Origin: Pararhizobium sp. YC-54
GTDB lineage: Bacteria; Pseudomonadota; Alphaproteobacteria; Rhizobiales; Rhizobiaceae
Length of the DNA stretch: 64,000 nt
Reading direction: 5' to 3'
Assembly (NCBI RefSeq): GCF_025847205.1
Contig: NZ_JAOYTH010000009.1
Location: forward strand, 124,001 to 188,000
Shown here: positions 14,098-58,762 of the stretch, one piece after another
Position numbering within the stretch: position 1 is the first letter of the stretch
How the letters are laid out: every line of letters begins with the position of its first letter
Program-made: the position numbers and the translations under genes
Notes under the pieces: model-generated
What the model was told of the DNA's origin: nothing
The model's database searches: none
Seen by the model: only the letters and a program-made list of their open reading frames with translations

Positions 14098-14176
14098 TAG
14101 ATTCCGCTTTTCTGCGAAGATAATCTTGATAGAAAGAGTCATCTTATAGCTCTCGCCTGTCCAGAAAGTGCATGAC

Positions 14177-20820: not shown

Positions 20821-20933
20821 CCCCTCACCCTAACCCTCTCCCCGCAAGCAGGGAGAGGGGACGACAGAGTTTGCCGCTTGTCCCTCCTCCCCGTCCTGAC
20901 GGGGAGGAGGTGGCCGACAGGGCGGATGAGGGG
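20821..20933. repeat. Recurrent rhizobial-type palindromic element, copy 1
   Basis: This copy has the order CCCCTCACCCTA, a CTCCCCGC / GGGAGAGG hairpin, a linker, then a second CTCCCCG / CGGGGAGG hairpin and GGATGAGGGG. It is the reverse-oriented relative of the copies at 25958, 37171 and 58652. It lies between the Rieske gene and the SARDH-type gene, all on the minus strand. Confidence 0.85.
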
Positions 20934-25850: not shown

Positions 25851-25957
25851 GTCTGTTCCCTTGTTTGGGAGAAGTTTTGGCAACGATACGGGCCGGCATC
25901 AAGCGGTCAGATTTTGCTTTATTGATCGAAGAATTCGATTAGGTTGAAATGTAACAG

Positions 25958-26111
25958 CCCCTCATCCGGCCTGTCGGCCACCTTCTCCCCGCTCGCGGGG
26001 AGAAGGGATATGCCGCACCTTCCACATCCGTCTATCGGGGTATCGGCGGAAGTTGCGGCAAAATCCGTCGTCCCCTCTCCCCGCATGCGGGGAGAGGGCT
26101 AGGGTGAGGGG
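25958..26111. repeat. Recurrent palindromic element, copy 2 (long form)
   Basis: The ends CCCCTCATCC and GGGTGAGGGG flank two hairpins, CTCCCCGC-GCGGGGAG at about 25984-26005 and CTCTCCCCGC-GCGGGGAGAG at about 26075-26097. This copy carries about 40 extra bases between the hairpins compared with the copies at 37171 and 58652. It fills the divergent gap between the dehydrogenase operon and the LysR gene. Confidence 0.9.
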
Positions 26112-37120: not shown

Positions 37121-37170
37121 GTCGTGGGTCTCCGGTTCCGTCGAACTGCATTCAATATGCGGGCTAAAAG

Positions 37171-37281
37171 CCCCTCATCCGCCCTGCCGGGCACCTTCTC
37201 CCCGCAGGCGGGGAGAAGGGACCAGCGGCAAACTCCGTCATCCCCTCTCCCCGCAAGCGGGGAGAGGGCTAGGGTGAGGGG
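37171..37281. repeat. Recurrent palindromic element, copy 3
   Basis: CCCCTCATCC to GGGTGAGGGG with two hairpins of the CTCCCCGC / GCGGGGAG type and a linker CAGCGGCAAACTCCGTCATC. It is nearly the same as copy 4 at 58652. It sits inside a transporter operon just after the binding-protein gene. Confidence 0.92.
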
Positions 37282-37289
37282 CATTTTCC

Positions 37290-39983: not shown

Positions 39984-40688
39984 ATGAAAATTGCAGCAGC
40001 GCCCGCCGAAAACCAGATCGACGTCAGCACACACTATATCCGCGACACCATCCGCGATGCGATCGTCGATCGCCGGCTTGCGCCCGGCACCAAGCTTTCG
40101 GAAGCCGATGTCGGAGCCTTGTTCAACGTCAGCCGCACGCTGGTCCGTGGCGCCCTGCAGGCGCTGTCTTACGAGGGCCTCGTCAATGTCGAGAAGAACC
40201 GCGGCGCTTTCGTCGCCTACCCCTCGCCTGAGGAAGCACGCCAGATCTTTGCCACCCGCCGGATGATCGAGCCCGGCATTCTGCGCGAAGCCGCCAAGCA
40301 CATAGACCCATCGCATCTCCAGCACCTGCGGCAACTGCTGATGGAAGAAGGCCGCCTGATCAACGAGCGAGGCCAGACGGCGCGACGCGCCGAGATCAAG
40401 GCGTCGGGCGATTTTCACCTGATGCTCGCCTCGATGACCGGTAATGCCGTCATGCAGCGCTTCATGGACGAACTCGTCGCCCGCTCTTCTCTGGTCATTG
40501 CGCTCTATGGGCAGTCGGCAATTTCAAGCTGCGGCCATCAGGAACATCAGGACATCGTCACGGCGATCGAACGCAAGGATATCGAGCACGCCTGCAAACT
40601 GATTGTGCACCACATCGACCATATCGAAGCCGACCTCGACATGCGCGAAAACAGGGGCAGCGACCTTAGGGAGGCTTTCAGGCTTTAG
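39984..40688 (+). CDS. GntR-family transcriptional regulator (FCD domain)
   Basis: A 234-residue regulator; ATG 39984 follows a TTG at 39981. The winged helix reads YIRDTIRDAIVDRRLAPGTKLSEADVGALFNVSRTLVRGALQAL; the C-terminal all-helical FCD domain has metal or ligand residues in GDFHLMLASMTGN and HHIDHIEADL. It is divergent from the PotABCD-type importer and probably controls it in response to an amine-derived metabolite. Confidence 0.92.
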   Translation: MKIAAAPAENQIDVSTHYIRDTIRDAIVDRRLAPGTKLSEADVGALFNVSRTLVRGALQALSYEGLVNVEKNRGAFVAYPSPEEARQIFATRRMIEPGILREAAKHIDPSHLQHLRQLLMEEGRLINERGQTARRAEIKASGDFHLMLASMTGNAVMQRFMDELVARSSLVIALYGQSAISSCGHQEHQDIVTAIERKDIEHACKLIVHHIDHIEADLDMRENRGSDLREAFRL

Positions 40689-40801
40689 GCCGCGTACCCC
40701 GTTCTTCAGAACATCGTTCATCAAGCAGATTCCGAAATGACTTCAGCGCTGGAACCTTCCGGGAATCCAGACGTTACCGTGCTGCAATTTCAAGAAGCAG
40801 C

Positions 40802-41050
40802 ATGAGGACGACGTTGAGTTACAAACGCTTTCCAACCCCCGTCAGAGTGATCATCAAACAGAACCGCGAAAACATTATCGCAACCGCCTGGGACGCCGTC
40901 GAGTTCCTGTACCGCTGGCCCGGCAAGCGCGGCCTTGCCTATCGCCGCGCCCTGCAGCATTGCCTCGATGCGCTCGACGGCATCCTCAGTGCGGCAAAAG
41001 CCTGGGCCTCGTTTACCGCGGCGGTAAAGGAAGAAGGCTTGCTCGCCTGA
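40802..41050 (+). CDS. DUF982 domain-containing protein
   Basis: An 82-residue protein with the pattern AWDAVEFLYRWPGKRGLAYRRALQHCLDALDG, the core of DUF982, a small-protein family expanded in rhizobia. Function unknown. It has its own terminator at 41077 and sits between the GntR gene and the dmm operon without evident connection to either. Confidence 0.85.
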   Translation: MRTTLSYKRFPTPVRVIIKQNRENIIATAWDAVEFLYRWPGKRGLAYRRALQHCLDALDGILSAAKAWASFTAAVKEEGLLA

Positions 41051-41076
41051 TTCCCCTGTTTTTCAAGCGCCCCCGA

Positions 41077-41109
41077 TGCCCGGACCCTTGATCCGGGCAT
41101 TTTCGTTTT
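41077..41109 (+). terminator. Rho-independent terminator after the DUF982 gene
   Basis: The stem TGCCCGGA (41077-41084) / TCCGGGCA (41092-41099) has a 7-base loop and is followed by TTTTCGTTTT, ending transcription before the dmm operon. Confidence 0.85.
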
Positions 41110-41328
41110 CGGATATTCTCCAACATCTTACTACTTGAAAATGCCGCCTGCCCGGCGTTGAATGCCTGCCGAGAGGTCCGCCGGAGTGCAAAAGCGGCAC
41201 GGTTTTCGCCGTTCGCGACACCGCAATTTCCGGCGAGAAATCCACATCGCGGGCTTGCCGTTCCCAAAAACGCGAATATACTCAGGAATAATTATTTCCA
41301 CAGAGTGAAATATATAAGGGAACAAAAC

Positions 41329-42462
41329 ATGGCACTTAGCTGGCGTTTTTCCGCCTTGGGCGACAGACATCGGGCATTGGGATCCAACCTTGAGGACTGG
41401 AGCGGCATGGGAACCGCCTGGACCTACGACAAGGACATCTACGAAGAGCACATCGCCGTGCGCACCAAGGCCGGCATCATGGATGTCTCCGGCCTGAAGA
41501 AGGTCCATCTCGTCGGCCCGCATGCGATTGCCGTTCTGGAATACATCACCACGCGCGACATGACCAAGGTCTATCCCGGCAAGTCTGTCTATGCCTGCAT
41601 GCTCAACGATCGCGGTCATTTCACCGATGACTGCATCGTCTACCGCACCGGGCCGAACTCCTGGATGCTGGTGCACGGCTCGGGCTCAGGCTTCGAGGAA
41701 ATCGTCAAGCAGGCGCAGGGCCGCAATTGCGCCGTGCTGTTCGATGACGACCTGCACGACCTGTCGCTGCAGGGTCCGCTTGCTGTCGATTATCTCGAAA
41801 AATATGTGCCCGGCATCCGCGATCTCAAATACTTCCATCACATGCAGACGACACTGTTCGGCGCACCGGTGATGATCTCGCGCACCGGCTATACCGGCGA
41901 GCGCGGCTATGAAATCTTCGTGCGCGGCCAGGATGCCGGCATGGTCTGGGACCGCATCGTCGATGAAGGCAAGGCGATGGGCATCATCCCCGTCTGCTTC
42001 AGCGTCCTCGATATGCTGCGTGTCGAAAGCTACCTTTTGTTCTACCCCTACGACAACTCGCAGATGTATCCCTTCGCCAACGAGCAGCCCGGCGACAGCC
42101 TGTGGGAACTCGGCCTCGATTTCACCGTCAGCCCCGGCAAGACCGGTTTTCGCGGCGCCGAGGAACATGCCCGCCTGAAGGGCAAGGAACGCTTCAAGAT
42201 CTTCGGCCTCCTGGTCGATGCAGACGGCCCGACGGACCTTGGCGACGAAGTGTGGGCCGGCGACAAAAAGGTCGGCGTCATCACCTGCCCCTCCTATTCC
42301 AAGCTGACCAATCGCTCGATGGCGATCATGCGCGTCGAGGTGCCCTATGCCGTTCAGGGCACCAAACTCGAAGTCAAGGGCAAGACCGTCAACGCGCCGG
42401 CGATCGCCCATACGATCACCTTCGACGATCCGAAGAAAACGAAACGGACGGCGCAGGGCTGA
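41329..42462 (+). CDS. dmmD: Folate-dependent aminomethyltransferase-like subunit of dimethylamine oxidation
   Basis: A 377-residue protein; ATG 41329 follows AAGGGA, and the open frame upstream to 41158 lacks sense. It is a GcvT-fold protein (TKAGIMDVSGLKKVHLVGP, SRTGYTGERGYEIFVRG, SVLDMLRVESYLLFYP). In methylamine-degrading bacteria a GcvT-like DmmD encoded beside DmmABC captures formaldehyde from dimethylamine as methylene-tetrahydrofolate. The strict gene neighbourhood with a heme DUF3445 protein, a ferredoxin reductase and Tmm supports this over a general glycine-cleavage role. First gene of a five-gene unit. Confidence 0.87.
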   Translation: MALSWRFSALGDRHRALGSNLEDWSGMGTAWTYDKDIYEEHIAVRTKAGIMDVSGLKKVHLVGPHAIAVLEYITTRDMTKVYPGKSVYACMLNDRGHFTDDCIVYRTGPNSWMLVHGSGSGFEEIVKQAQGRNCAVLFDDDLHDLSLQGPLAVDYLEKYVPGIRDLKYFHHMQTTLFGAPVMISRTGYTGERGYEIFVRGQDAGMVWDRIVDEGKAMGIIPVCFSVLDMLRVESYLLFYPYDNSQMYPFANEQPGDSLWELGLDFTVSPGKTGFRGAEEHARLKGKERFKIFGLLVDADGPTDLGDEVWAGDKKVGVITCPSYSKLTNRSMAIMRVEVPYAVQGTKLEVKGKTVNAPAIAHTITFDDPKKTKRTAQG

Positions 42463-42466
42463 CGGC

Positions 42467-43072
42467 ATGCTCGTACAAGGGATCAAAAGCAGGCCGGAGT
42501 ACAAGGGGCTCGACATCGATCCCCACGCGAAACGTCACCTCTTCGTCCTCGAGGGCGAAGGGGCAGCCGCCCTTGCCGATCAGGTGGATGCCAAGGGCAG
42601 CGATTTCCTCGCAAGATCGGAAATCCTCTATCTCGCCGCCGGTGCTGCCCCGAAAGCCTATGACGCCGTGCTTTTGGCGCTGTCGCCCGACATCTTCTGG
42701 CAGGCGCCGACGCTTCAGCCGCTTTTATTCCGCCTTCGCGCCTGTCTTGAGCAGGCGCGGATGGGAACGCGGCTCTATATCGCCGGCACCGAAGGCTTCA
42801 TCGGCCAGATCATGCAGGTTGCGCTGGAATTCGGCATCGATTTCAACTCGATCCACACCGAACATCGCGGCTCGACGGCACGGCGCGTACAATGCGTCCA
42901 CTGCAAGGGCATCACCGACAATGTGAGGACGAGCCCCTTTGCCTGTTCCCATTGCGGCCTGCCGCTTTTGGTACGGGATCACTATTCCAGACGCCTCGGC
43001 GCCTTCCAGGGCGTCAACATCGATGCAGAAGAACCGGGTACTGCGCCTGCCCCTGAGGAGATGTTCCCGTGA
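42467..43072 (+). CDS. dmmC: Dimethylamine monooxygenase subunit DmmC
   Basis: A 201-residue soluble protein starting four bases after the dmmD stop. The C-terminal part has a zinc-ribbon-like set C143, C146, C160 and C163 (CVHC and CSHC) after a helical region. It matches the small accessory subunit of the DmmABC oxygenase. Its exact role is not well defined, though electron-transfer or assembly functions are plausible. It overlaps dmmB by 4 bases (ATGA-type coupling). Confidence 0.82.
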   Translation: MLVQGIKSRPEYKGLDIDPHAKRHLFVLEGEGAAALADQVDAKGSDFLARSEILYLAAGAAPKAYDAVLLALSPDIFWQAPTLQPLLFRLRACLEQARMGTRLYIAGTEGFIGQIMQVALEFGIDFNSIHTEHRGSTARRVQCVHCKGITDNVRTSPFACSHCGLPLLVRDHYSRRLGAFQGVNIDAEEPGTAPAPEEMFP

Positions 43073-44034
43073 GCCTCAATACCGACATGTTTGTCCGGGT
43101 CGCGGCGGTGACGCAGGTGACCGATCTGGTCAAACGCTTCCGCTTCGAGCGGATGGACGGCCATCCCATGCCGTTCTTTTCCGGCGGCGCCCATGTCGTC
43201 GTCTCGATGAACGACAACGGCTTGCTCCGCCGCAATCCCTATTCGCTGATGTCCAATCCCGACGACAACAGCGCCTATGAAATCAGCGTGCTGAGGGTTC
43301 CCAATTCCCGCGGCGGCTCGATCTTCATGCACGAACAGGTGAGGCCCGGCGATCAGCTGACCGTCAGCCAGCCGGTCAATCTGTTCGCGCCGGATCATCG
43401 TGGCCGCAAGCACATCCTGTTTGCCGGCGGCATCGGAATCACCCCGTTCATCGCCATGATGGAACAGTTCAGCCGCGACAACATCGCCTTCGAACTGCAC
43501 TATGCCATCCGCTCGCGCTCGCACGGGGCCTACTGGCAGCAGCTGCTCGACCGCTACGGCCCGCGCCGCATCAAGATCTATGTCGACGAGGAGAAGACCT
43601 ACATCCCCGTCGCGGAAATCGCCGAAAACCAGCCGCTCGGCACGCATCTCTACGTCTGCGGTCCGGCCGGCATGATCGACGGCGTGCTGATGACGGCGCT
43701 CAAAGCGGGATGGCCGAAGGAAAACCTGCATTCGGAACGTTTCCTTGCGCCGCCCGCCGGCCTGCCGTTCCAGGTCTTCCTCGAAAAATCCAACATCCAC
43801 ATGACCGTCGGCGAGCACCAGAGCATCCTGGAAGCAGCAGAGGCCCATGGCTGCGACGCCCCCTACATGTGCCGCGGCGGCGCCTGCGGCCAGTGCGAAA
43901 CCGAGGTGTCTTCCTGCGACGGCACGCTGGAGCACAACGATATCTACCTGTCGGATGAGGAAAAGGCGTCCGGCAAGAAAGTCATGATCTGCGTGTCACG
44001 CTTCAAAGGCCAGCAACTCGTTCTTCAACTTTAA
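43069..44034 (+). CDS. dmmB: Dimethylamine monooxygenase reductase subunit (FMN/FAD, NAD(P), [2Fe-2S])
   Basis: A 321-residue reductase of the phthalate-dioxygenase-reductase family. The flavin motif is RRNPYSLMS (about residue 57-65), the nucleotide domain has GGIGITPFIAMM and VCGPAGMIDGV, and the C-terminal ferredoxin domain has C268, C273, C276 and C308 (CRGGACGQC, then IC). It passes electrons from NAD(P)H to the heme subunit DmmA. The architecture also fits a Rieske-oxygenase partner, so it might serve the orphan oxygenase at 19488. Confidence 0.87.
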   Translation: MSLNTDMFVRVAAVTQVTDLVKRFRFERMDGHPMPFFSGGAHVVVSMNDNGLLRRNPYSLMSNPDDNSAYEISVLRVPNSRGGSIFMHEQVRPGDQLTVSQPVNLFAPDHRGRKHILFAGGIGITPFIAMMEQFSRDNIAFELHYAIRSRSHGAYWQQLLDRYGPRRIKIYVDEEKTYIPVAEIAENQPLGTHLYVCGPAGMIDGVLMTALKAGWPKENLHSERFLAPPAGLPFQVFLEKSNIHMTVGEHQSILEAAEAHGCDAPYMCRGGACGQCETEVSSCDGTLEHNDIYLSDEEKASGKKVMICVSRFKGQQLVLQL

Positions 44035-44067
44035 CAGTCGTACTCAGACAGAAGGGGGTCCGGACAG

Positions 44068-45108
44068 ATGACCATCACGTTCAGGAGCGAAACGTTCCGC
44101 GACGACTTCACCTTCCGCAACAGCCTTTACAATATCAGGCGGTTTCCCTTCCCCTTCGATCGCGACGAGTACATGTACTCGGTCAACATGGAGCCGCATA
44201 TCCGGGGCAAGACGGACAGCGTTTTTGAAAACCTGATCGATGTCGATGAGCACTATGTCGCCGAGATGCACGACCGGGCGCTGGTGCTGAAGGAGGATCC
44301 GCTGCGCTGCCAGGCCCTGCCGCACATGATGGCGGCGCAATGGGACACGCTAGAACTCCTGATGGAGCATCAGGCGCAGGATTATCCCGAGCACTTCACG
44401 CTGACAAAAGACGGCGACCGCTGGCGCTGGATCAACCGGCCGATGGGCATCGACGACACCTTCACCTTCGGCGATCCCTCCACCCTGCCCTATCCGCCGA
44501 TGGAATACATCACGCGGCAGGCCCAGGGCGATTTCTGTATCGTCGATCAGCGCGACAACAATCTCTGGATGGATGCCGGCATGGTCACCACCCAGGCCGA
44601 CTGGTCGCTCGATTTCGACATCGGCATGAATTTTATGGAATGGCACGGCCCGGTGCCGCTCGCCCACCAGATCGGCGTGTTCGACCGGGCGCTGAAATTC
44701 CTCCTGAACCTGCAGCAGGGCAAGCCGACGCGCCGCCTCAACTGGACGATGACCGTCAATCCGCGGCTCGATACCTCGCCGGAAAACTACCACAAATGGG
44801 GTCCGGACCGCGCGACGGTGACACCGGAGAATGTCGGCGAAAAGATGCATCTGCGCGTCGAACTGCAGAGCCTGTGGCGCCTGCCGCGCTCCAACGCCAT
44901 CCTCTTCGTCATCCGCTGCTACCTGATCAGCCTCGACGAACTGGTAACCGTCCCCAAATGGGGCCGGCGCCTGCCGCGTGTGCTCAAGAGCCTGCCGCCG
45001 GAAATCGCCGACTACAAGGGCCTGACCCGCAACCGGCCGATCATGATCGACTGGCTGGCGAAATACGACGACGGGGCACCGACGAGCGCGGGGATCTATC
45101 CGGATTGA
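44068..45108 (+). CDS. dmmA: Heme-dependent dimethylamine N-demethylase subunit (DUF3445)
   Basis: A 346-residue DUF3445 protein (FRNSLYNIRRFPFPFDRDEYMYSVNM, LVTTQADWSLDFDIGMNFMEWHGPVP, LRVELQSLWRLPRSNAILFVIRCYLISLDELV). Proteins of this family were shown to be heme-containing oxidative N-demethylases, and DmmA is the catalytic subunit for dimethylamine to methylamine plus formaldehyde. It follows dmmB by 33 bases and precedes tmm. Cytoplasmic; no signal peptide. Confidence 0.87.
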   Translation: MTITFRSETFRDDFTFRNSLYNIRRFPFPFDRDEYMYSVNMEPHIRGKTDSVFENLIDVDEHYVAEMHDRALVLKEDPLRCQALPHMMAAQWDTLELLMEHQAQDYPEHFTLTKDGDRWRWINRPMGIDDTFTFGDPSTLPYPPMEYITRQAQGDFCIVDQRDNNLWMDAGMVTTQADWSLDFDIGMNFMEWHGPVPLAHQIGVFDRALKFLLNLQQGKPTRRLNWTMTVNPRLDTSPENYHKWGPDRATVTPENVGEKMHLRVELQSLWRLPRSNAILFVIRCYLISLDELVTVPKWGRRLPRVLKSLPPEIADYKGLTRNRPIMIDWLAKYDDGAPTSAGIYPD

Positions 45109-45117
45109 GAGGTTAAG

Positions 45118-45272
45118 CCCCTCCCCAACCCTCCCCACAAGGGGGAGGGAGCGACCTCTTCCCGGTGCCCGCCGGTGTTCTTTTCGGCAGCCACAAGGAA
45201 ATAGCGTCGGAATGCGCTGGCGAGCGGGTCCGGCAGATTAGCCCTCCCCCTTGTGGGGAGGGTTGGGAGGGG
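45118..45272. repeat. Long inverted-repeat element between dmmA and tmm
   Basis: About 31-base arms at 45118-45149 (starting CCCCTCCCCAACCCTCCCCA) and 45242-45272 are near-perfect reverse complements enclosing about 90 bases. It is a different family from the 20821/25958/37171/58652 elements. It lies inside the presumed five-gene operon and could attenuate tmm expression relative to dmmDCBA. Confidence 0.88.
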
Positions 45273-45323
45273 TCTTCTCCACAAACAGTGCACGTACAAC
45301 AAAAACAAAGGGAACTGACAGAC

Positions 45324-46661
45324 ATGACCAGAGTAGCCGTGATCGGCGCAGGGCCCTCGGGCCTTGCTCAGCTAAGAGCCTTCCAGTCCGCCGCCCAGAA
45401 AGGCGCTGAAATTCCCGAAGTGGTCTGCTTCGAAAAGCAGGCCGACTGGGGTGGTTTGTGGAATTACACGTGGCGCACCGGGCTTGATGAATATGGCGAG
45501 CCCGTTCACGGCAGCATGTACCGCTATCTCTGGTCGAACGGCCCGAAGGAATGCCTGGAATTCGCCGACTACTCCTTCGAGGAACATTTCGGCAAGCCGA
45601 TCGGCTCCTATCCGCCCCGCGCCGTACTCTGGGACTACATCAAGGGCCGGGTCGAAAAGGCCAACGTGCGTAAATGGGTGCGCTTCTCGACGCCGGTGCG
45701 CATGGTCCGGTTCGACGAGGCCACGAAGAAATTCACGGTGACCGCCCACAACCGCATCGAAGACCGGATGTATGACGAGGAATTCGACTATGTCGTCGTC
45801 GCCTCCGGCCATTTCTCGACCCCGCACGTTCCCTATTTCGAGGGCGTCCGCACCTTCGGTGGCCGCGTCCTGCATGCCCATGATTTCCGCGACGCGCTGG
45901 AATTCAAGGACAAGAACGTGCTGATCGTCGGCCGCAGCTATTCGGCCGAGGACATCGGCTCGCAATGCTGGAAATACGGCGCGAAATCGGTGACGACGAG
46001 CTACCGCTCCAAGCCGATGGGGTTCAAATGGCCGGAGCGCTTCGAAGAGCGGCCGCTGTTGCAGAAACTCGTCAACAAGACGGCCCATTTTGCCGATGGA
46101 TCGACCAAGGAAGTCGATGCGCTGATCCTGTGCACCGGCTATCTCCACCATTTCCCCTTCCTGCCCGACGACCTGCGCCTGAAGACCGCCAACCGCCTGT
46201 GGTCCGACAGCCTCTACAAGGGCGTCGTCTACGAGGACAATCCGCAGTTGATGTATATCGGCATGCAGGACCAGTTCTACACCTTCAACATGTTCGACGC
46301 CCAGGCCTGGTTCGCCCGCGACGTGATCATGGACCGCATCAAGCTGCCCTCGAAGGAGGAAATGAAGGCGCATTTCGACAGGTGGCGCGCCCGCGAGGAA
46401 ACCCTTGAAGATGCCGAGCAGATGATCTGGTTCCAGGGCGATTACGTCATCGAGCTTTTGGAGCACACCGACTATCCGAAGTTCGACGTCAAGGGCACCA
46501 ACAAGACCTTCATGGAATGGGAGCACCACAAGGCCGAAAACATCATGGGCTTCCGCGACAATGCCTACAAATCGCTGATGACCGGCACGATGGCGCCCAA
46601 GCATCACACGCCCTGGCTGGAGGCGATGGACGATACGCTGGAAGTCTACCTGAAGAACTGA
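45324..46661 (+). CDS. tmm: Trimethylamine monooxygenase (flavin-containing monooxygenase)
   Basis: A 445-residue FMO; ATG 45324 follows AAGGGAA. FAD site GAGPSG (8-13), NADPH site [13 protein letters not shown] (202-214) and the FMO-type [12 protein letters not shown] (161-172) are present. SYSAED and the overall length match bacterial Tmm, which converts trimethylamine to its N-oxide with NADPH and O2. Clustering with dmm genes and tdm makes other FMO substrates less likely. The same class can make indigo from indole, an observable trait. Confidence 0.9.
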
Positions 46662-46693
46662 TCGTGCTTTGCCGATAATACAGCCGAAGGCCC

Positions 46694-46819
46694 ATGCAAC
46701 GGCCTTCGGCGCAGCGAGGCGCCGGCTTTGCCGTTCTTGCCTCGGAGATGCGGACGCTCGCCAACGATTCCGAGGCCATCGCTCGCCAGATTGCGACTGC
46801 GCAAGGCAAGTCGAGCTGA
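46694..46819 (+). pseudogene. Remnant of a methyl-accepting chemotaxis protein signalling domain
   Basis: A 41-residue frame from ATG 46694 to TGA 46817 contains GAGFAVLASEMRTLANDSEAIARQI, recognisably the hairpin-tip-flanking segment of MCP signalling domains (typically GxGFAVVAxEVRxLAxxS). No ligand, HAMP or remaining signalling sequence is present. It is a scar between tmm and the ParD gene, left by deletion or recombination. Confidence 0.6.
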
Positions 46820-46927
46820 CGCCCCTCGGTTCTTGAGGGCAATGCGCTGACAGGCTGCGCAGTTCGCAATAAGCGTTTTTGTGATTTGTTCTTATCCATG
46901 ATAGGATGCCCAAAAGGAGTATTCCGC

Positions 46928-47194
46928 ATGGCCACCATGACCATATCCCTGCCCGACCCCATGAAAGAATGGATCGAAGCCCAGATCAGCAAGGGCGAAT
47001 ATGCGAGCACCAGCGACTATGTACGCGATCTCGTCCGCCGCGATCGATCCCGCCGGAATCAGGAATTGACGATCGAAGAGTTGCGCCAAATCGTTGCCGA
47101 CTCACGGTCCAGCGGCACCGGCAAGCAGAACATCGACGAGATTTTCGAGAATGCCGAGCGCCTTGCAAGGGCAAGGGGCGTCGTGCGTGAGTAG
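46928..47194 (+). CDS. parD: ParD-family (CopG/RHH) antitoxin without toxin partner
   Basis: An 88-residue protein; ATG 46928 follows AAGGAG. The ribbon-helix-helix start MATMTISLPDPMKEWIEAQISKGEYASTSDYVRDLVRRD is classic ParD. The tail SSGTGKQNIDEIFENAERLARARG should bind a ParE toxin, but the 58 bases to tdm contain no parE, and tdm is on the opposite strand. The antitoxin therefore looks orphaned, either as an anti-addiction module or as a leftover. Confidence 0.85.
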   Translation: MATMTISLPDPMKEWIEAQISKGEYASTSDYVRDLVRRDRSRRNQELTIEELRQIVADSRSSGTGKQNIDEIFENAERLARARGVVRE

Positions 47195-47252
47195 CCTGCT
47201 GAAACTCTAAGGTGCTCTCAGCGACAGGCCCCCAGCGCCCGGCCTATCAACG

Positions 47253-49622
47253 TTAAGAACGCGGCTTCAGCTTCTGCGGATCGTAATGCGCAAGCGGCAC
47301 AATCCTCGCCGGTAGCCGCTTCTGCTGACCGTCGAGCTTGCCGATCTCGACTTCTGTACCGACCTCGGAATGCAACACGTCCATCCGTGCCAGCGCGATT
47401 GTCTTTTTCAGGAGCGGCGAGCGCGTCGAACTGGTGACGACGCCGACCTGGGCGCGGCCGATATGCACGGTGTCACCGTGGCCAACGGCGTCATTGGCGT
47501 CGATATCGAGCCCGACCAGCTTGTAGCGCGGGTTTTCCTTGCGCTTGATCAGCGCCTCGCGGCCGATGAAATCGTCGGTCTTCGACTTCAGCGGCACGGT
47601 AAAGCCAATACCGGCTTCAAAGGGGTCGGTCTGGTCGGAGAAATCATAATGGGCAAAGACGAGACCGGCCTCGATGCGCACCATGTCGAGCGCTTCCAGT
47701 CCCATCGGCTTCAGCCCATGCTTCTGGCCAGCCTCCCAGACGGCATCGAACACGGCAAGCGCGTCCTTCGGATGACAGAAGATTTCGTAGCCAAGTTCGC
47801 CGGTATAGCCGGTGCGCGAGACGACGACCGGCGCGCCTTCGAAATGGCCGATACGGCCGACGGCGAAGCGGAACCATTCGAGTTCGCCGATCGAGGGCTG
47901 CGATGGTGCCGTCCAGATGATCTCCTTGATGATCTCGCGGCTGTTCGGCCCCTGGACGGCCAGATTGTGCATCTGGTCGGTGGAGGAGCGCACCCAGGCC
48001 TTGTAGCCCATCTTCTCGGCCTGCTCGCGCAGCCAGATACCGCTGACGTCATCGCCGCCGATCCAGCGGAAATTGTTGTCCCCAAGACGGAACACCGTGC
48101 CGTCATCGATCATGCCGCCGTTCTCGTAGCACATGGCCGTATAGACCACCTGCCCCGGCGACAGCTTGCGGATATCGCGGGTGACGCAATATTGCAGCAG
48201 CGCCTCCGCATCCGGCCCGGTCACCTCGAATTTCCTGAGTGGTGACAGGTCCATGACCACGGCCTTTTCCCGGCAGGCCCAGTATTCCTCGATCGGCCCT
48301 TCATTGTTGAAGCGGTTCGCAAGCCAGTAGCCGCGATACTCCGCGTGATTTCGGGTCAGGCCTGAGAAGCGGGGGTGGAAAGCGGTTTCCTGGGTCATTT
48401 CTGGCTCTGCATCGGGGGTCATTCGGATGGCGACGGCGCGCGAGAACTTCTCTTTGTCCGAATAGGTGCGGACATGAATGTCGGTCGGGTTCCACGCATT
48501 GGCGGCATCGATATCGTCGGGGCATGACGAGGACACGCAGACCAGATCGGTCAGCGCCCGCATCAGCACATAATCGCCCGGCCGCGACCAGGGTTCGTCG
48601 AGATAGAGCTGGTTATGGTGATCGACATTGGTGTTGTAGAAATAGTTGAGCGCTTCCCAGCCCTTGCGCGGTGCAATGCCATATGGCGCCAGCGCATGGT
48701 TGAAATTGTCGGTACAATTGACATGGCCGGGATAGCCCATGTCGTCGTAATAGCGCGAATTGCAGGCGGTTGCGAAGGCATCATGGCGCCCGACCGTATC
48801 CTGCACGATCTCCACCAGCGGCTCGAAATCCCGATCGAAAGCCTTCGATGGCAGGCCGGGCGTCGGATAGCTGCGCCCGAGCAAGGTCCTCGTCACCGTC
48901 GCATCCAGCGCCAGATCCAGCCCCTTGTCGACCTTGCGGGCCGAAAAAGCCTGAAAATCGGTGCATTGCCGGCCGGAGACATCGATCACCTGAATGAACT
49001 CGCCGGCCCGCACGAAATAGGCCGAAGCCCTCGCCGCCTGGATGCGCAGATCCTGCACCGGATCGGCCATCGGCTCCGGCAGCATCTCCTCATACGTGCG
49101 CTCGATCCGGGTGCGGGTCACGCGCAGTTCGAGCGCGGTCGCTGTGTTCTGTGCCTCCGCATCCATCGGCGGCGCCGGTGCCGCGACGATCAGCAACCCG
49201 TCAAGCGCGATGGTCAATTCGGCCGCAGCCCCCGGCGACGAGCTTTCGCCGAACAGGACCAGAGCCTGCGCCCCAGCGGGATCGACGTTTCTTCGTTTCA
49301 GAGCGCTCAGCGTTCGCCGCGCGCTGTCTTCGTCGCGGGCAAGAATTTCCTGAAGCCCATAGGCGGGCCGCGAAAAGCGGACCCCAAGACCGGCCGCGTT
49401 GAACCGCCCCCCGGCATCGATAAAGCTGACTTCGCCAAGCTGTCCGCCTTCGACATCCTTGATGGCGATCCGGTCACCGGCCATCACCTTGACGACCGTC
49501 GTTCCGCGCCCCTTGACGCGGTAGCGCTCGACGCCGGCTGGCAGAACCGGAATGCCCGGCCGCAGAATCGTGCTCGGCCGCGGCGGCATCACAGTGCCTG
49601 CAAATCGTCCGGAATCGGTCAT
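47253..49622 (-). CDS. tdm: Trimethylamine N-oxide demethylase (DUF1989-GcvT)
   Basis: A 789-residue protein; start 49622 (MTDSGRFAG) after GGAG. The N-terminus (about 20-370) is a DUF1989/urea-carboxylase-associated domain; the C-terminus (about 400-785) is a GcvT folate-binding domain. C287, C303 and C367 are spaced 16 and 64 residues apart, the same spacing as I recall for the zinc-binding cysteines of characterised Methylocella Tdm. Tdm splits trimethylamine N-oxide into dimethylamine and formaldehyde without a redox cofactor. It faces away from the permease at 49914 and converges on tmm/parD. The long open frame to 49859 upstream is not part of the gene. Confidence 0.88.
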   Translation of the reverse strand: MTDSGRFAGTVMPPRPSTILRPGIPVLPAGVERYRVKGRGTTVVKVMAGDRIAIKDVEGGQLGEVSFIDAGGRFNAAGLGVRFSRPAYGLQEILARDEDSARRTLSALKRRNVDPAGAQALVLFGESSSPGAAAELTIALDGLLIVAAPAPPMDAEAQNTATALELRVTRTRIERTYEEMLPEPMADPVQDLRIQAARASAYFVRAGEFIQVIDVSGRQCTDFQAFSARKVDKGLDLALDATVTRTLLGRSYPTPGLPSKAFDRDFEPLVEIVQDTVGRHDAFATACNSRYYDDMGYPGHVNCTDNFNHALAPYGIAPRKGWEALNYFYNTNVDHHNQLYLDEPWSRPGDYVLMRALTDLVCVSSSCPDDIDAANAWNPTDIHVRTYSDKEKFSRAVAIRMTPDAEPEMTQETAFHPRFSGLTRNHAEYRGYWLANRFNNEGPIEEYWACREKAVVMDLSPLRKFEVTGPDAEALLQYCVTRDIRKLSPGQVVYTAMCYENGGMIDDGTVFRLGDNNFRWIGGDDVSGIWLREQAEKMGYKAWVRSSTDQMHNLAVQGPNSREIIKEIIWTAPSQPSIGELEWFRFAVGRIGHFEGAPVVVSRTGYTGELGYEIFCHPKDALAVFDAVWEAGQKHGLKPMGLEALDMVRIEAGLVFAHYDFSDQTDPFEAGIGFTVPLKSKTDDFIGREALIKRKENPRYKLVGLDIDANDAVGHGDTVHIGRAQVGVVTSSTRSPLLKKTIALARMDVLHSEVGTEVEIGKLDGQQKRLPARIVPLAHYDPQKLKPRS

Positions 49623-49913
49623 CTCAGCTCCATCCGAGGGCACAGCCGGTTCGGCGGTCCACAGGCACCGCTTTATGCACCGGCAATATGGCCAAACTAT
49701 CCTATGGGAGGCCGCCGAAAGTAAAGAGAGACTTGACCGAGAAGAAAAAAAATTCACTATGAAGATAAGTTGCGGTCGCGAAATTAAAACGGGAACAGAT
49801 GGCGACACTGCGAAAACGCAGGCGCCATCCAGCGAAGATACCGCAGCGATAACCATCATAAAGGGGACGCGCGAAAACGCGCTTCAAGACAAAACTGGAC
49901 GAGGAGACTGTTT

Positions 49914-51701
49914 ATGGCATCTATCGTTGAGACCGAGGGATCGGCCCCTGCCTCAGGCACCGGGCTGATCCGCGCGCTGGACTGGAAAGGGGCATTCTGG
50001 GTCGCCGCCGGCGTACCGCCGCTGGTGCTCTTCTCCATCGGCGGCATCGCAGGCACGACAGGCAAGCTCGCCTTCGTGGTCTGGATCATTTCCATGCTGA
50101 TGGGGTTCCTGCAATCCTTCACCTATGCCGAAATCGCCGGCATGTTCGGCAACAAATCGGGCGGCGCATCGATCTATGGCGCCACCGCCTGGCTGCGCTA
50201 TTCGAAATTCATCGCGCCCCTGTCGGTGTGGTGCAACTGGTTCGCCTGGTCGCCGGTGCTGTCGCTCGGCTGCGCCATCGCCGCGGGCTATATTCTCAAC
50301 GCCCTGTTCCCCATTCCCGGTGCCGGTTCCCCGGCCGTGATGGAGTGGATCAACGCCAATATGGCAACGCTGACGGCCGATAGCCCGCGCGTGACCGAAT
50401 GGCTCGCCGCCAATGCCGACAAGACGCCGCAGGACGCCATCTCCGCGCTGCTTTCGACCGATGCCATCGCCGCGCTGACACCGGCGATCCGCAGCTGGTC
50501 GCTGATCACTTTCGACATTCCGTTTCTTGCAACGGCAAACCTGAACGCCACGTTCGTCATCGGCGGCATCCTGATGCTGATCATCTTCGCGATCCAGCAT
50601 CGTGGTATCCAGGGCACGGCGAGCGTGCAGAAATGGCTCGCCATCATCGTCCTGTTGCCGCTCCTGATCATCGGCCTCTATCCGATCTTCTCCGGCCAGA
50701 TCGACAGCGCCAATGTCACCAACCTCGTGCCGCCGACAGCCGGCTATTCCGGTGTCGACGGCGTCTGGAGCAATGGCGGCTGGACGCTGTTTCTCGGCGG
50801 TCTCTATATCGCCGCCTGGTCGACCTACGGGTTCGAGACGGCTGTCTGCTACACCCGCGAACTGAAGAACCCGAAGACCGATACGTTCAAGGCGATCTTC
50901 TATGCCGGCCTGCTCTGCTGCCTGTTCTTCTTCCTCATTCCCTTCACCTTCCAGGGCGTTCTCGGCCATGCCGGCATGCTCGCGCCCGGCATCGTCGATG
51001 GCACCGGTGTTGCGGAAGCCTTGGCAAGCCTCGTTCATGGCGGCAGGATCATCACGCAGATCCTCGTCATCCTGATGATCATGGCGCTGTTCCTCGCCAT
51101 CATGACCGCAATGGCCGGTTCGTCGCGCACGCTCTACCAGGGCTCGAAGGACGGCTGGCTGCCGAAGTATCTCGATCACGTCAACGAGCACGGCGCTCCG
51201 ACCCGCGCCATGTGGACCGACTTCGCCTTCAACCTCATCCTGCTCGCCATCGCCTCCGACGTGGCCGGCTACTTCTTCGTGCTGGCCGTATCCAATGTCG
51301 GCTACATCATCTTCAACTTCCTCAACCTCAACGCCGGCTGGATCCATCGCATGGACTCAAGCCACATCCAGCGCCCCTGGAAGGCCCCGACCTGGCTGAT
51401 CGGCCTCAATACGGTTCTTGCCTTCGTCAACGCGCTGTTCCTCGGCGCCGGCGCCAAGGTCTGGGGCTACTCCAACGCGCTCTGGATCGGCTTCATCTTC
51501 GCCGCTCTCATCCTGCCGGTCTTTGCCTATCGTCACTATGTGCGTGACGGCGGCAAGTTCCCGGCAGGCGCGATGGAAGACCTTGGCCTCGTCGGCCAGG
51601 ATCTGGGCGTCAAGAAAGCCGGCATCCTGCCCTACGTGGCACTCGCCGCCGGCCTTGCCGTCGTTCTGGCTGCAAACGCCTACTTCCAGCTGCCGGCCTG
51701 A
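49914..51701 (+). CDS. APC-superfamily permease, candidate methylated-amine carrier
   Basis: A 595-residue inner-membrane transporter with about 12-13 hydrophobic helices; start GGCATC-adjacent ATG 49914 with AGGAGA upstream. The pattern GGIAGTTGKLAFVVWIISMLMGFLQSFTYAEIAG and the helix near AAWSTYGFETAVCYTRELKNPKTD fit APC amino-acid/amine permeases. It contains an unusual extended periplasmic stretch around 140-195. The gene is divergent from tdm across a 291-base gap, so a shared regulator is likely and the substrate could be TMA, TMAO or methylamine. Substrate is inference. Confidence 0.8.
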   Translation: MASIVETEGSAPASGTGLIRALDWKGAFWVAAGVPPLVLFSIGGIAGTTGKLAFVVWIISMLMGFLQSFTYAEIAGMFGNKSGGASIYGATAWLRYSKFIAPLSVWCNWFAWSPVLSLGCAIAAGYILNALFPIPGAGSPAVMEWINANMATLTADSPRVTEWLAANADKTPQDAISALLSTDAIAALTPAIRSWSLITFDIPFLATANLNATFVIGGILMLIIFAIQHRGIQGTASVQKWLAIIVLLPLLIIGLYPIFSGQIDSANVTNLVPPTAGYSGVDGVWSNGGWTLFLGGLYIAAWSTYGFETAVCYTRELKNPKTDTFKAIFYAGLLCCLFFFLIPFTFQGVLGHAGMLAPGIVDGTGVAEALASLVHGGRIITQILVILMIMALFLAIMTAMAGSSRTLYQGSKDGWLPKYLDHVNEHGAPTRAMWTDFAFNLILLAIASDVAGYFFVLAVSNVGYIIFNFLNLNAGWIHRMDSSHIQRPWKAPTWLIGLNTVLAFVNALFLGAGAKVWGYSNALWIGFIFAALILPVFAYRHYVRDGGKFPAGAMEDLGLVGQDLGVKKAGILPYVALAAGLAVVLAANAYFQLPA

Positions 51702-51726
51702 CCGGTCTGGTGCAGTCACCGTCGAC

Positions 51727-51763
51727 AAAGGTCCGCGCATCGGCAGGTGCGCGGACCTTTTGC
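51727..51763 (+). terminator. Rho-independent terminator after the permease gene
   Basis: The stem AAAGGTCCGCGCA (51727-51739) pairs with 51748-51760 around an 8-base loop and ends in CCTTTTG. It lies 26 bases after the permease stop and may work in both directions. Confidence 0.85.
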
Positions 51764-51811
51764 GTTGCGGGCCGATCTCTGGCGCAAACAGCGCCAGGAG
51801 ACGACCGAGCG

Positions 51812-53785
51812 TCAGGTCCGCTCCACAGAAACCACGGTTTCGGGACAGTTGGTCTTCTCGCCGATCACCTCGTAGAGTTCCAGCGCGGTTGCCCGGCCCT
51901 TGACCTGGGCCTGTCCGAGCGGATGAAAGGCAATCGCATCATCGCATAATGCGACCACCGCACCGCTCGCCATGATCGCCGTGCCATAGACCTTGTTCAT
52001 GCCTTCGAGGCGTGACGCAACGTTCACGGTGTCGCCCATCGCCGTATATTGCAGCCGCTCCTTCGCCCCGACGCTGCCGACAACCGCCGTGCCGGTATGG
52101 ATGCCGAAGCGGGTGCGCAATTCCGGCAGGCCCCGTGCCTTCAGATCGGCATTGAACACCTGGAGTTTTCTCTCGACCGCCAGCGCACAGCGGCAGGCAT
52201 TTTCGGCGTGGTGTTCGTCTGCCACCGGCGCGTTCCACATGGCAAACACCGAGTCTCCGAGAAACTGGATGATCTCGCCGCCATGGGCGCTGACGGTTTC
52301 GTTGAAGATGTCGAAATAGTCGGACAGCAGCGCAACGACTTCCTCCGGCGTGCGCTGCTCGCTCAGCGTGGTGAAGTCATAGATATCGGTAAACCACGCC
52401 GTCACCTCCTGCCGGCGCGCGCCCCTGCCCGCAAACTGACCGGATTCAATGCCCTTGCGCACCAGTTCCTTCGGCACGTAGAGCGCAAACGTGAAGATTG
52501 CATCGCGCGCCCGGTTCATCGCCCGCACGAGCGTCGATATCTCAGTGACGTGCGAGGCGACCTGGCTCGGCGCGGTAAAATCGAGATCCTGCAGCCGGTT
52601 TGCGCTGGCAGTCAACTGGCCAAGCGACTGCGTGACCAGCCGCGCCATGAACAAAGCAGCAAGCAGCCCGAGGATGACGATAGCGCCCGCAATAGCGAGC
52701 CCCTGATAAAGGTTGTGATTTGCCACTGCAGTCAGCTCGTCCAGAGGTGCAGCCACCACGGTGCGATGTCCGGAAAGCAGGAGAACCGACTTCACCGAGG
52801 ACGTCATGATGATATAGGTGCGCCCGCCTATATCGGCGAAGCTCACGCCGTTGCCCATCGGCAGGTTGGCCTTGATGCCGGCGAGCAACGGATCGGCGGC
52901 TCTTGTTGAAATGTCCGGTTCGCCTTTTTCCTTCAATGCCGCCATGCGCGCCATCAGCCCACGGTCGGAATGCATGATCGGCTTTCCGGCCGCGTCCATC
53001 ACCAAGGCGACGGTTTGCGGGGTCAGACGTTCACGCGCCATGAATTCGGTGATCGTGCCGAGGTCGATATCCGCGCCGATGACGATACCGCCATTGCCGC
53101 GGTGAGCCTGCGAGATGCTCATGCCAAGAGCGCCAGTCGTCGCCATCGTATAGGGCCCGATCGCTGCCGGCATCGTGCCGTTGACCGCAGCCTGATACCA
53201 GGGACGCTTCCTCGGATCGAACCCGGTGGTGAGGAGACGCCGCTCCAATATCTGATTGCCGTCCTTATCGAGGAAGATCAGGCGGTTACTATGCTCGCCC
53301 GCCGGCTCCATCTGCATCGACCGGACCGCCATCGCCGCCATTTCCGGCGCATCGAGAGCCGCGCGCCAGGCCGGCGCGCCGAGGTCGACAGCCTGAATGA
53401 AAGCTCCGTCCGGATAGCCGGCAAAAATACCGTCCAGATTGGAGGATTGGGCGATGATTTCACGCAGCAGCTTGATCTTGTCGCTCATGCGCTCCGGTGG
53501 CGGCACAAGAATGGAATTGGCGATCGAGGCGGTGAACCCTACCAGCGCCGTCGTGCGCCCGGAAAGAATGCCCAGACGATCGATCAGACGATCGGAAAAG
53601 GCACGCATATCGGCCTCGGCATTGACGAGGGCCGCATCGCGCGCCCGCACATAGCCGAAACCGACCAGCGTGCCAGAAACGGCGATCAGCAAGGCTGCCA
53701 TCGCAAGGCCCAGCAGCGACCTCAATGGCCTGGTCCAGACCTTGGGCTGGCCTTTTGCAGCAGGTGCAACCGATATTTCCGTCAT
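51812..53785 (-). CDS. Cache-HAMP class III adenylate/guanylate cyclase
   Basis: A 657-residue membrane protein (53812 is an alternative start). TM1 (about 22-45) and TM2 (about 355-380) flank a periplasmic double-Cache sensor domain, followed by HAMP (ARLVTQSLGQLTASANRLQDLD) and a class III cyclase domain from about 440. Metal-binding Asp residues are visible in WFTDIYDFTTLSEQ and FLGDSVFAMWNAP. It would turn an external small-molecule signal into cyclic nucleotide. Convergent with the permease gene; its ligand is unknown. Confidence 0.9.
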   Translation of the reverse strand: MTEISVAPAAKGQPKVWTRPLRSLLGLAMAALLIAVSGTLVGFGYVRARDAALVNAEADMRAFSDRLIDRLGILSGRTTALVGFTASIANSILVPPPERMSDKIKLLREIIAQSSNLDGIFAGYPDGAFIQAVDLGAPAWRAALDAPEMAAMAVRSMQMEPAGEHSNRLIFLDKDGNQILERRLLTTGFDPRKRPWYQAAVNGTMPAAIGPYTMATTGALGMSISQAHRGNGGIVIGADIDLGTITEFMARERLTPQTVALVMDAAGKPIMHSDRGLMARMAALKEKGEPDISTRAADPLLAGIKANLPMGNGVSFADIGGRTYIIMTSSVKSVLLLSGHRTVVAAPLDELTAVANHNLYQGLAIAGAIVILGLLAALFMARLVTQSLGQLTASANRLQDLDFTAPSQVASHVTEISTLVRAMNRARDAIFTFALYVPKELVRKGIESGQFAGRGARRQEVTAWFTDIYDFTTLSEQRTPEEVVALLSDYFDIFNETVSAHGGEIIQFLGDSVFAMWNAPVADEHHAENACRCALAVERKLQVFNADLKARGLPELRTRFGIHTGTAVVGSVGAKERLQYTAMGDTVNVASRLEGMNKVYGTAIMASGAVVALCDDAIAFHPLGQAQVKGRATALELYEVIGEKTNCPETVVSVERT

Positions 53786-58651: not shown

Positions 58652-58762
58652 CCCCTCTTCCGCCCTGTCGGGCACCTTCTCCCCGCACGCGGGGAGAAGG
58701 GATATGCGGCACGCTCCGTCATCCCCTCTCCCCGCATGCGGGGAGAGGGTTAGGGTGAGGGG
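58652..58762. repeat. Recurrent palindromic element, copy 4
   Basis: CCCCTCTTCC to GGGTGAGGGG with two hairpins (CTCCCCGC / GCGGGGAG at about 58678-58699, CTCTCCCCGC / GCGGGGAGAG at about 58725-58748). The same layout as copies 2 and 3. It lies in the convergent gap between pcaB and the helicase gene, where it may act as a bidirectional 3'-end structure. Confidence 0.92.

Follow-up and report, generated by a model that had tools for sequence, protein, structure and literature searches.

Does a set of methylated-amine genes in Pararhizobium sp. YC-54 represent a newly arranged route from trimethylamine (TMA) to methylamine, or a familiar catabolic cluster in a familiar layout? The genes lie in a 64,000-nucleotide stretch of contig NZ_JAOYTH010000009.1 (forward strand, positions 124,001 to 188,000; hereafter the window, whose own numbering is used throughout), where a first-pass annotation had described a compact mineralisation locus for TMA, trimethylamine N-oxide (TMAO) and dimethylamine spanning 41329..49622, with the gene order dmmD-C-B-A-tmm, a facing tdm gene and a repeat element ahead of tmm. 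Comparison with protein families, solved structures and related genomes makes it highly probable that this is the known cluster for the catabolism of TMA to methylamine, set out in an ordinary rhizobial layout. The pathway locus is ordinary, and the repeat is a modest, testable curiosity.

All six genes of the first-pass annotation are present on the strands it had given them, and its readings of the flavin-containing monooxygenase (FMO) and the DUF1989-GcvT protein are borne out by homology searches, with both proteins exceeding the cut-offs of the equivalog models for Tmm and TMAO demethylase. The predicted trimethylamine monooxygenase gene, tmm (45324..46661, + strand), scores 848.6 bits against NF058570 (cut-off 675), and its product matches the solved bacterial FMO/Tmm chains 2xve (E 1.1e-233), 5gsn and 6kbw; the SYSAED motif that had been noted occupies residues 205-210. 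We considered whether the longer form VGRSYSAED is a special variant of the NADP motif (2xve has VGSSYSAED) and rejected this, as 106 of 136 Tmm sequences, duplicates of one genome included, have arginine immediately ahead of SYSAED. The predicted TMAO demethylase gene, tdm (47253..49622, - strand), scores 1254.6 bits against NF053776 (cut-off 1100), and its product combines PF09347 with PF01571, matches the solved TMAO demethylase PDB 9q59 at 1049 bits and is 60% identical to Tdm of Paracoccus aminophilus. As previously described, Tdm carries C287, C303 and C367 at spacings of 16 and 64 residues, equal to those of the zinc cysteines C263/C279/C343 of Methylocella silvestris Tdm, and we find that D222, H300 and D370 are likewise spaced as D198, H276 and D346 of that protein, of which H276 and D346 are proposed for its iron site (PMC12560246). 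The locus also runs on beyond the six genes to a divergent permease gene that had been overlooked, tmoP (49914..51701, + strand), which matches the TMAO permease equivalog NF053774 at 841.9 bits (cut-off 690) and whose product is 68% identical to the P. aminophilus APC permease encoded between tmm and dmmD.

The four dmm genes are co-directional with tmm. The first, dmmD (41329..42462, + strand), encodes a GcvT-type tetrahydrofolate protein (PF01571, 202 bits; 60% identity to P. aminophilus DmmD). It is followed by dmmA (42467..43072, + strand), which the first-pass annotation had called DmmC and whose product, a small subunit 48% identical to the P. aminophilus DmmA-family protein, lies above the cut-offs of NF041259, PF22290 (114.8 bits) and PF22289 (74.8 bits); its two CxxC motifs, already recognised, are C143-x2-C146 and C160-x2-C163, and the cysteines are invariant across 27 aligned homologues. 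Sharing an operon with dmmA and dmmC is dmmB (43069..44034, + strand, GTG start), which encodes a flavin/2Fe-2S reductase of the phthalate dioxygenase reductase (PDR) type, with PF00970, PF00175 and PF00111 above gathering scores, a 157-bit match to phthalate dioxygenase reductase 2pia and 57% identity to P. aminophilus DmmB. Finally, dmmC (44068..45108, + strand), the earlier "DmmA," encodes the predicted haem subunit of the DUF3445/HODM alpha family (PF11927, 242.7 bits, cut-off 25), which matches PDB 5lte ("heme dependent oxidative N-demethylase") over residues 1-336 of 346 (E 6.8e-153) and is 69% identical to the P. aminophilus DUF3445 protein.

These assignments bear directly on the claim that the internal order is unusual, which does not hold. 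Pfam PF22290/PF22289 and NCBIfam NF041259 assign the name DmmA to the CxxC protein, and on P. aminophilus plasmid pAMI6, where dmmDABC are reported as pAMI6p074-71 and tdm as p069 (PMC4543880), the sequence record lists an aminomethyltransferase-family (GcvT) protein, a DmmA-family protein, a PDR/VanB reductase and a DUF3445 protein in that order, with a large aminomethyltransferase-family protein, Tdm, two genes past the DUF3445 gene. We linked the published tags to RefSeq locus tags by gene count, and the position of tdm at p069 is consistent with that link. DmmC is described as the best conserved Dmm subunit both by Lidbury et al. (PMC5520151) and in the P. aminophilus paper (PMC4543880), and the best conserved dmm protein between that species and the window is the DUF3445 protein, at the 69% given above. 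The apparent D-C-B-A order therefore arose because the names DmmA and DmmC had been exchanged, and by sequence the operon is the canonical dmmD-A-B-C, a correction that removes what would otherwise look like a novel gene order.

The wider layout proves equally common, including the two features that had been singled out as distinctive, tmm in last place and tdm facing it. Among the best 80 of 591 similarity matches to the window's DUF3445 protein, a set of named loci weighted to close relatives (the closest being from Rhizobium sp., Rhizobium herbae, Shinella, Pararhizobium and Rhizobiales), the D-A-B-C order of the window is found in 79, the remaining one being a cut contig. In the same set tmm directly follows the dmm genes in 79 loci, tdm is convergent with tmm in 73, and the permease is divergent from tdm in 69; 69 loci also have the four dmm genes, tmm, tdm and the permease gene grouped together. 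Since this set favours close relatives, we took a second set of Tmm loci: the Tmm cut-off is passed by 57 of 297 genomes of the family, and 56 loci, excluding that of the window, were examined over about 10 kb either side, some ended by contig breaks. Here all four dmm genes fall within the stretch in 35 loci, ordered D-A-B-C in 29 and A-B-C-D in 6, with tmm directly after dmmC in 25 of the 56 and a convergent tdm in 21. By these comparisons, dmmDABC-tmm facing tdm is the usual layout in Rhizobium and its relatives, and tmm in last place and a facing tdm are also frequent across the family at large.

What the locus would do can be read from its named relatives. The analysis establishes homology, the conservation of key residues, synteny and that the downstream genes are present; every reaction is transferred from those relatives. 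TmoP would import TMAO, and Tmm would oxidise TMA to TMAO using NADPH and O2; Tdm would then split TMAO into dimethylamine and formaldehyde at a zinc/iron DUF1989 site, and DmmABC, comprising the reductase DmmB, the small subunit DmmA and the haem protein DmmC, would convert dimethylamine to methylamine and formaldehyde by oxidative demethylation. DmmD probably hands formaldehyde to tetrahydrofolate. In published work, dmmABC alone converts dimethylamine to methylamine one to one in E. coli, and Ruegeria pomeroyi dmmD is required for growth on TMA and TMAO and not on dimethylamine (PMC5520151). The claim of a full route from TMA to methylamine thus stands as far as the tmm, tdm and dmm genes are concerned, and the label of a mineralisation locus does not: the route ends at methylamine, which would be used via N-methylglutamate genes on another contig, so mineralisation is not complete in one place. 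That contig (C16) encodes homologues of Rhizobium johnstonii GmaS (90% identity) and MgsC (97%), together with one of an Mgd subunit (88%) that has another homologue, at 77%, on contig C13. On C16 these genes are accompanied by mgsA and mgsB, by genes for a GlxA-type regulator (70%), an alpha-like subunit and another Mgd subunit, and by the first part of purU. The GlxA-type gene adjoins mgd, as does the gene for the AraC-type protein TmaR, described as the master regulator in R. pomeroyi (PMC13390433), and is a candidate TmaR counterpart.

Two points weigh against this assignment. No NCBIfam equivalog is matched above its cut-off by DmmB or DmmD, or at all by DmmC, so these three names rest on Pfam, synteny and published relatives. 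Within the wider family, the dmm set is incomplete over the stretch examined in 21 of the 56 Tmm loci, some of which are truncated at a contig end, and tmm and dmm can thus separate. Bacterial FMOs of this family are promiscuous, sulfides included, and the FMO and the demethylases might act chiefly on other substrates such as dimethyl sulfide or larger tertiary amines, with TMA incidental, but we consider this very improbable given that Tmm and Tdm exceed their equivalog cut-offs and that the whole set of seven genes clusters in 69 of the 80 named loci. The TMA-to-methylamine assignment adds one more genome able, as judged from its genes, to carry out this conversion.

What, then, of the repeat ahead of tmm? 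It is real: a palindromic element of 162 bp (type A, 45115..45276) lies in the dmmC-tmm gap, with 35-nt inverted arms at 45115-45149 and 45242-45276 that are 91% complementary. The RNA fold of 45100-45323 is predicted at -116.7 kcal/mol (z -6.6 against dinucleotide shuffles), and no match to a known structured RNA in Rfam was found within 40600-52000 at E values up to 0.1. Type A has relatives elsewhere in the genome. To place it we used 26 genomes of the genus, that of the window included, of which 24 carry dmmC and 23 have a readable dmmC-tmm gap. By pattern match, a palindromic element is present in 22 of these 23 gaps: type A in 10, type B in 7, type C in 4 and, in one, an element that matches both the A and B patterns and that we read as B; the exception (L172) has an 81-nt gap that we read as the remnant of a type B element after deletion. 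The three families are different, though unrelatedness is not proven, A and B having similar CCCCTC ends. The same patterns occur upstream of dmmD in 0 of 24 loci, in 0 of 22 tmm-tdm gaps, in 0 of 22 tdm-tmoP gaps and in 1 of 22 regions downstream of tmoP. The resulting contrast of 22/23 against 1/90 observations across four other zones of the same loci is inflated by choice, the site having been noticed because the window holds an element there, and is partly expected, as promoters lie in two of the four zones used as controls. Beyond the five zones there are 18 extra pattern hits in 5 of the 24 loci, those of the window lying at an element near 37.2 kb. The families are dispersed at tens per genome, with 4-62 type B cores, 0-49 type C sites and 0-43 type A palindromes.

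Element type does not follow the genes. On a tree from five coding genes (25 rows), well-supported sisters differ in type (L106, A, and L177, B, at 100/100; L179, A, and L167, C, at 100/99). With L172 counted as B and two loci excluded whose broken frames obscure the gap ends (L181 and L182), type needs 10 changes over 21 rows; shuffled labels average 9.65, and 10 or fewer changes arise in 228 of 300 shuffles. Within the genus, the repeat family is, as far as these sequences go, independent of the gene tree. The pattern-cut, non-element 3' flank of the gap is nonetheless similar within type (0.80 for A2, the main A subtype, 0.75 for B and 0.86 for C, against 0.46-0.68 when A subtypes are compared with B, C, or A2 with the rest), and at least some swaps therefore look like exchange of a gap cassette rather than fresh insertion. 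Exchange of long tracts was also considered as the cause of the swapping and rejected: the 450 bp on each side of the gap do not cluster by type (12 and 11 changes, where shuffling gives means of 10.3 and 10.4), a result that argues against long recombination tracts and not against gap-only exchange.

The occupied gaps suggest either that a hairpin is retained at this position or that the gap is a hot spot for insertion. A neutral hot spot, where mobile palindromes often insert and then disappear or are exchanged without affecting expression, has in our judgement close to an even chance. The gap is short, at 21-114 bp, in 65 of the 79 named loci in which it could be measured; no large element was found in the gap sequences of L007, L008, L019, L020, Sinorhizobium sp. 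RAC02 or Shinella oryzae; and Shinella and Sinorhizobium sp. RAC02 nest inside the tree with a 48-bp, element-free gap. The L172 remnant, the genome-wide dispersal of the repeats and the shared flanks of same-type alleles, consistent with cassette exchange, point the same way. Less easily accommodated by neutrality are the contrast between the dmmC-tmm gap and the other zones, with the reservation about promoters already made, and a second operon-internal site that behaves alike. This is the gap at 37121-37289 between genes for a PotD-like binding protein and a permease, where each of the 13 loci read has a palindrome (type B in 10, A-like in 2 and both in 1), 9 of them from the 12 listed of 322 plasmid records and found with a query that carried the window's type B element and so favoured B. 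All three orthologous gaps found in the genus are occupied, by B, A+B and A-like elements.

It is also a fair possibility, if one short of an even chance, that the repeat has been retained for its part in expression, as a stem-loop that would separate the dmmDABC message from tmm as a 3' stabiliser, partial terminator or processing site and for which any strong palindrome would serve. Consistent with this, 19 of 21 folded genus gaps, across all three families, reach z <= -2.7 (60 mononucleotide shuffles each), and position is retained while the family changes independently of the tree, as also at the binding-protein/permease gap. However, the gaps of L180 (z -1.3) and the remnant L172 (z -0.7) fold no better than shuffles, relatives with no element exist, and the reading draws on sequence and predicted folds. 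More tentatively still, both operon-internal boundaries, dmmC-tmm and that of the polyamine-type ATP-binding cassette (ABC) binding protein and permease, might be hairpin positions under selection, at which palindrome families interchange about as fast as species split, structure rather than sequence is conserved, and mobile palindromes serve as expression parts that can stand in for one another.

Three other type B palindromes of the window lie at 20834-20909, 25981-26098 and 58675-58749, for which no orthologous gaps were found among the genus loci compared. Of three plasmid relatives examined for the 26.0-kb site, one has a type B pattern somewhere within a 2.4-kb stretch and the other two have none, and thus not every element site keeps an element. 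In being dispersed intergenic palindromes, the repeats are like the Rhizobium-specific intergenic mosaic elements (RIME) and other palindromes akin to the repetitive extragenic palindromic (REP) sequences, whose function in rhizobia is described as unknown (PMC2573895, PMC2873474). Two Xanthomonas species offer a partial precedent, with different REPs reported at roughly matching places within the coding sequence of recB (PMC3733652). Our literature search, whose coverage did not include the founding 1995 RIME paper, turned up no account of different families occupying one gap inside an operon in sister species; novelty for such swapping is not claimed. About two dozen sister genomes that carry the same operon with different dmmC-tmm hairpins, together with Shinella, which has none, constitute a natural experiment, and this set would allow a direct test of whether rhizobial intergenic palindromes set transcript ratios.

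Within the pathway itself, DmmA is the least-understood part. Its predicted structure (27 sequences, mean predicted local distance difference test score 83) has an N-terminal domain that resembles the NAD-binding half of ferredoxin-reductase-type enzymes, the top structural match being the reductase of a type IV self-sufficient P450, with modest top-match template modelling scores of about 0.4-0.45. The NAD domain of DmmB also exceeds the gathering score of the DmmA-like_N family, and the C-terminal domain of DmmA contains the four invariant cysteines. From these features we infer that DmmA is possibly a broken-off reductase domain with a metal-binding tail, coupling DmmB to DmmC.

Other features of the window deserve brief mention. 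Between tmm and tdm lies an apparently orphan ParD-type antitoxin gene (46928-47194), also present in 6 of 23 other genus loci; only 58 bp separate its stop from the end of tdm, so there is no space for a downstream toxin gene. At 20959-25883, beside a LysR gene, lie two neighbouring genes for FAD-GcvT proteins of the dimethylglycine/sarcosine dehydrogenase type, with a ring-hydroxylating dioxygenase adjacent to them in a relative, and these genes are perhaps a second methylated-amine route in the window. A ferrioxamine B receptor gene is found at 14168-16366 (1372 bits, cut-off 904).

Compared with known clusters, the locus shares with P. aminophilus pAMI6 (tmm-tmoP-dmmDABC-tdm) the same seven genes and the same dmmDABC order at identities of 48-69%, whereas on pAMI6 tmm and tmoP lie upstream of dmmD, tdm is co-directional and downstream, and purU and folD precede tmm. 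The pRL11 cluster of R. johnstonii 3841 has dmmDABC-tmm, a convergent tdm and a divergent APC permease, but differs in that tmm and tdm stand about 4.3 kb apart, with min genes and others between them, that mgsABC-gmaS and purU immediately precede dmmD, and that the dmmC-tmm gap is only about 50 bp. In Aminobacter, another genus of Rhizobiales, the same seven genes are reported (tmm, tmd, tmoP and dmmDABC), and A. aminovorans KCTC 2477 likewise carries its N-methylglutamate genes on a separate replicon (PMC8235418). The R. pomeroyi cluster (tmm, tdm, tmoXWV, dmmDABC, gmaS, mgs, mgd and tmaR) covers the same reactions with the same dmmDABC order (PMC5520151, PMC13390433), and differs in its TMAO transporter, the ABC-type TmoXWV in R. 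pomeroyi and the APC-type TmoP beside tdm here.

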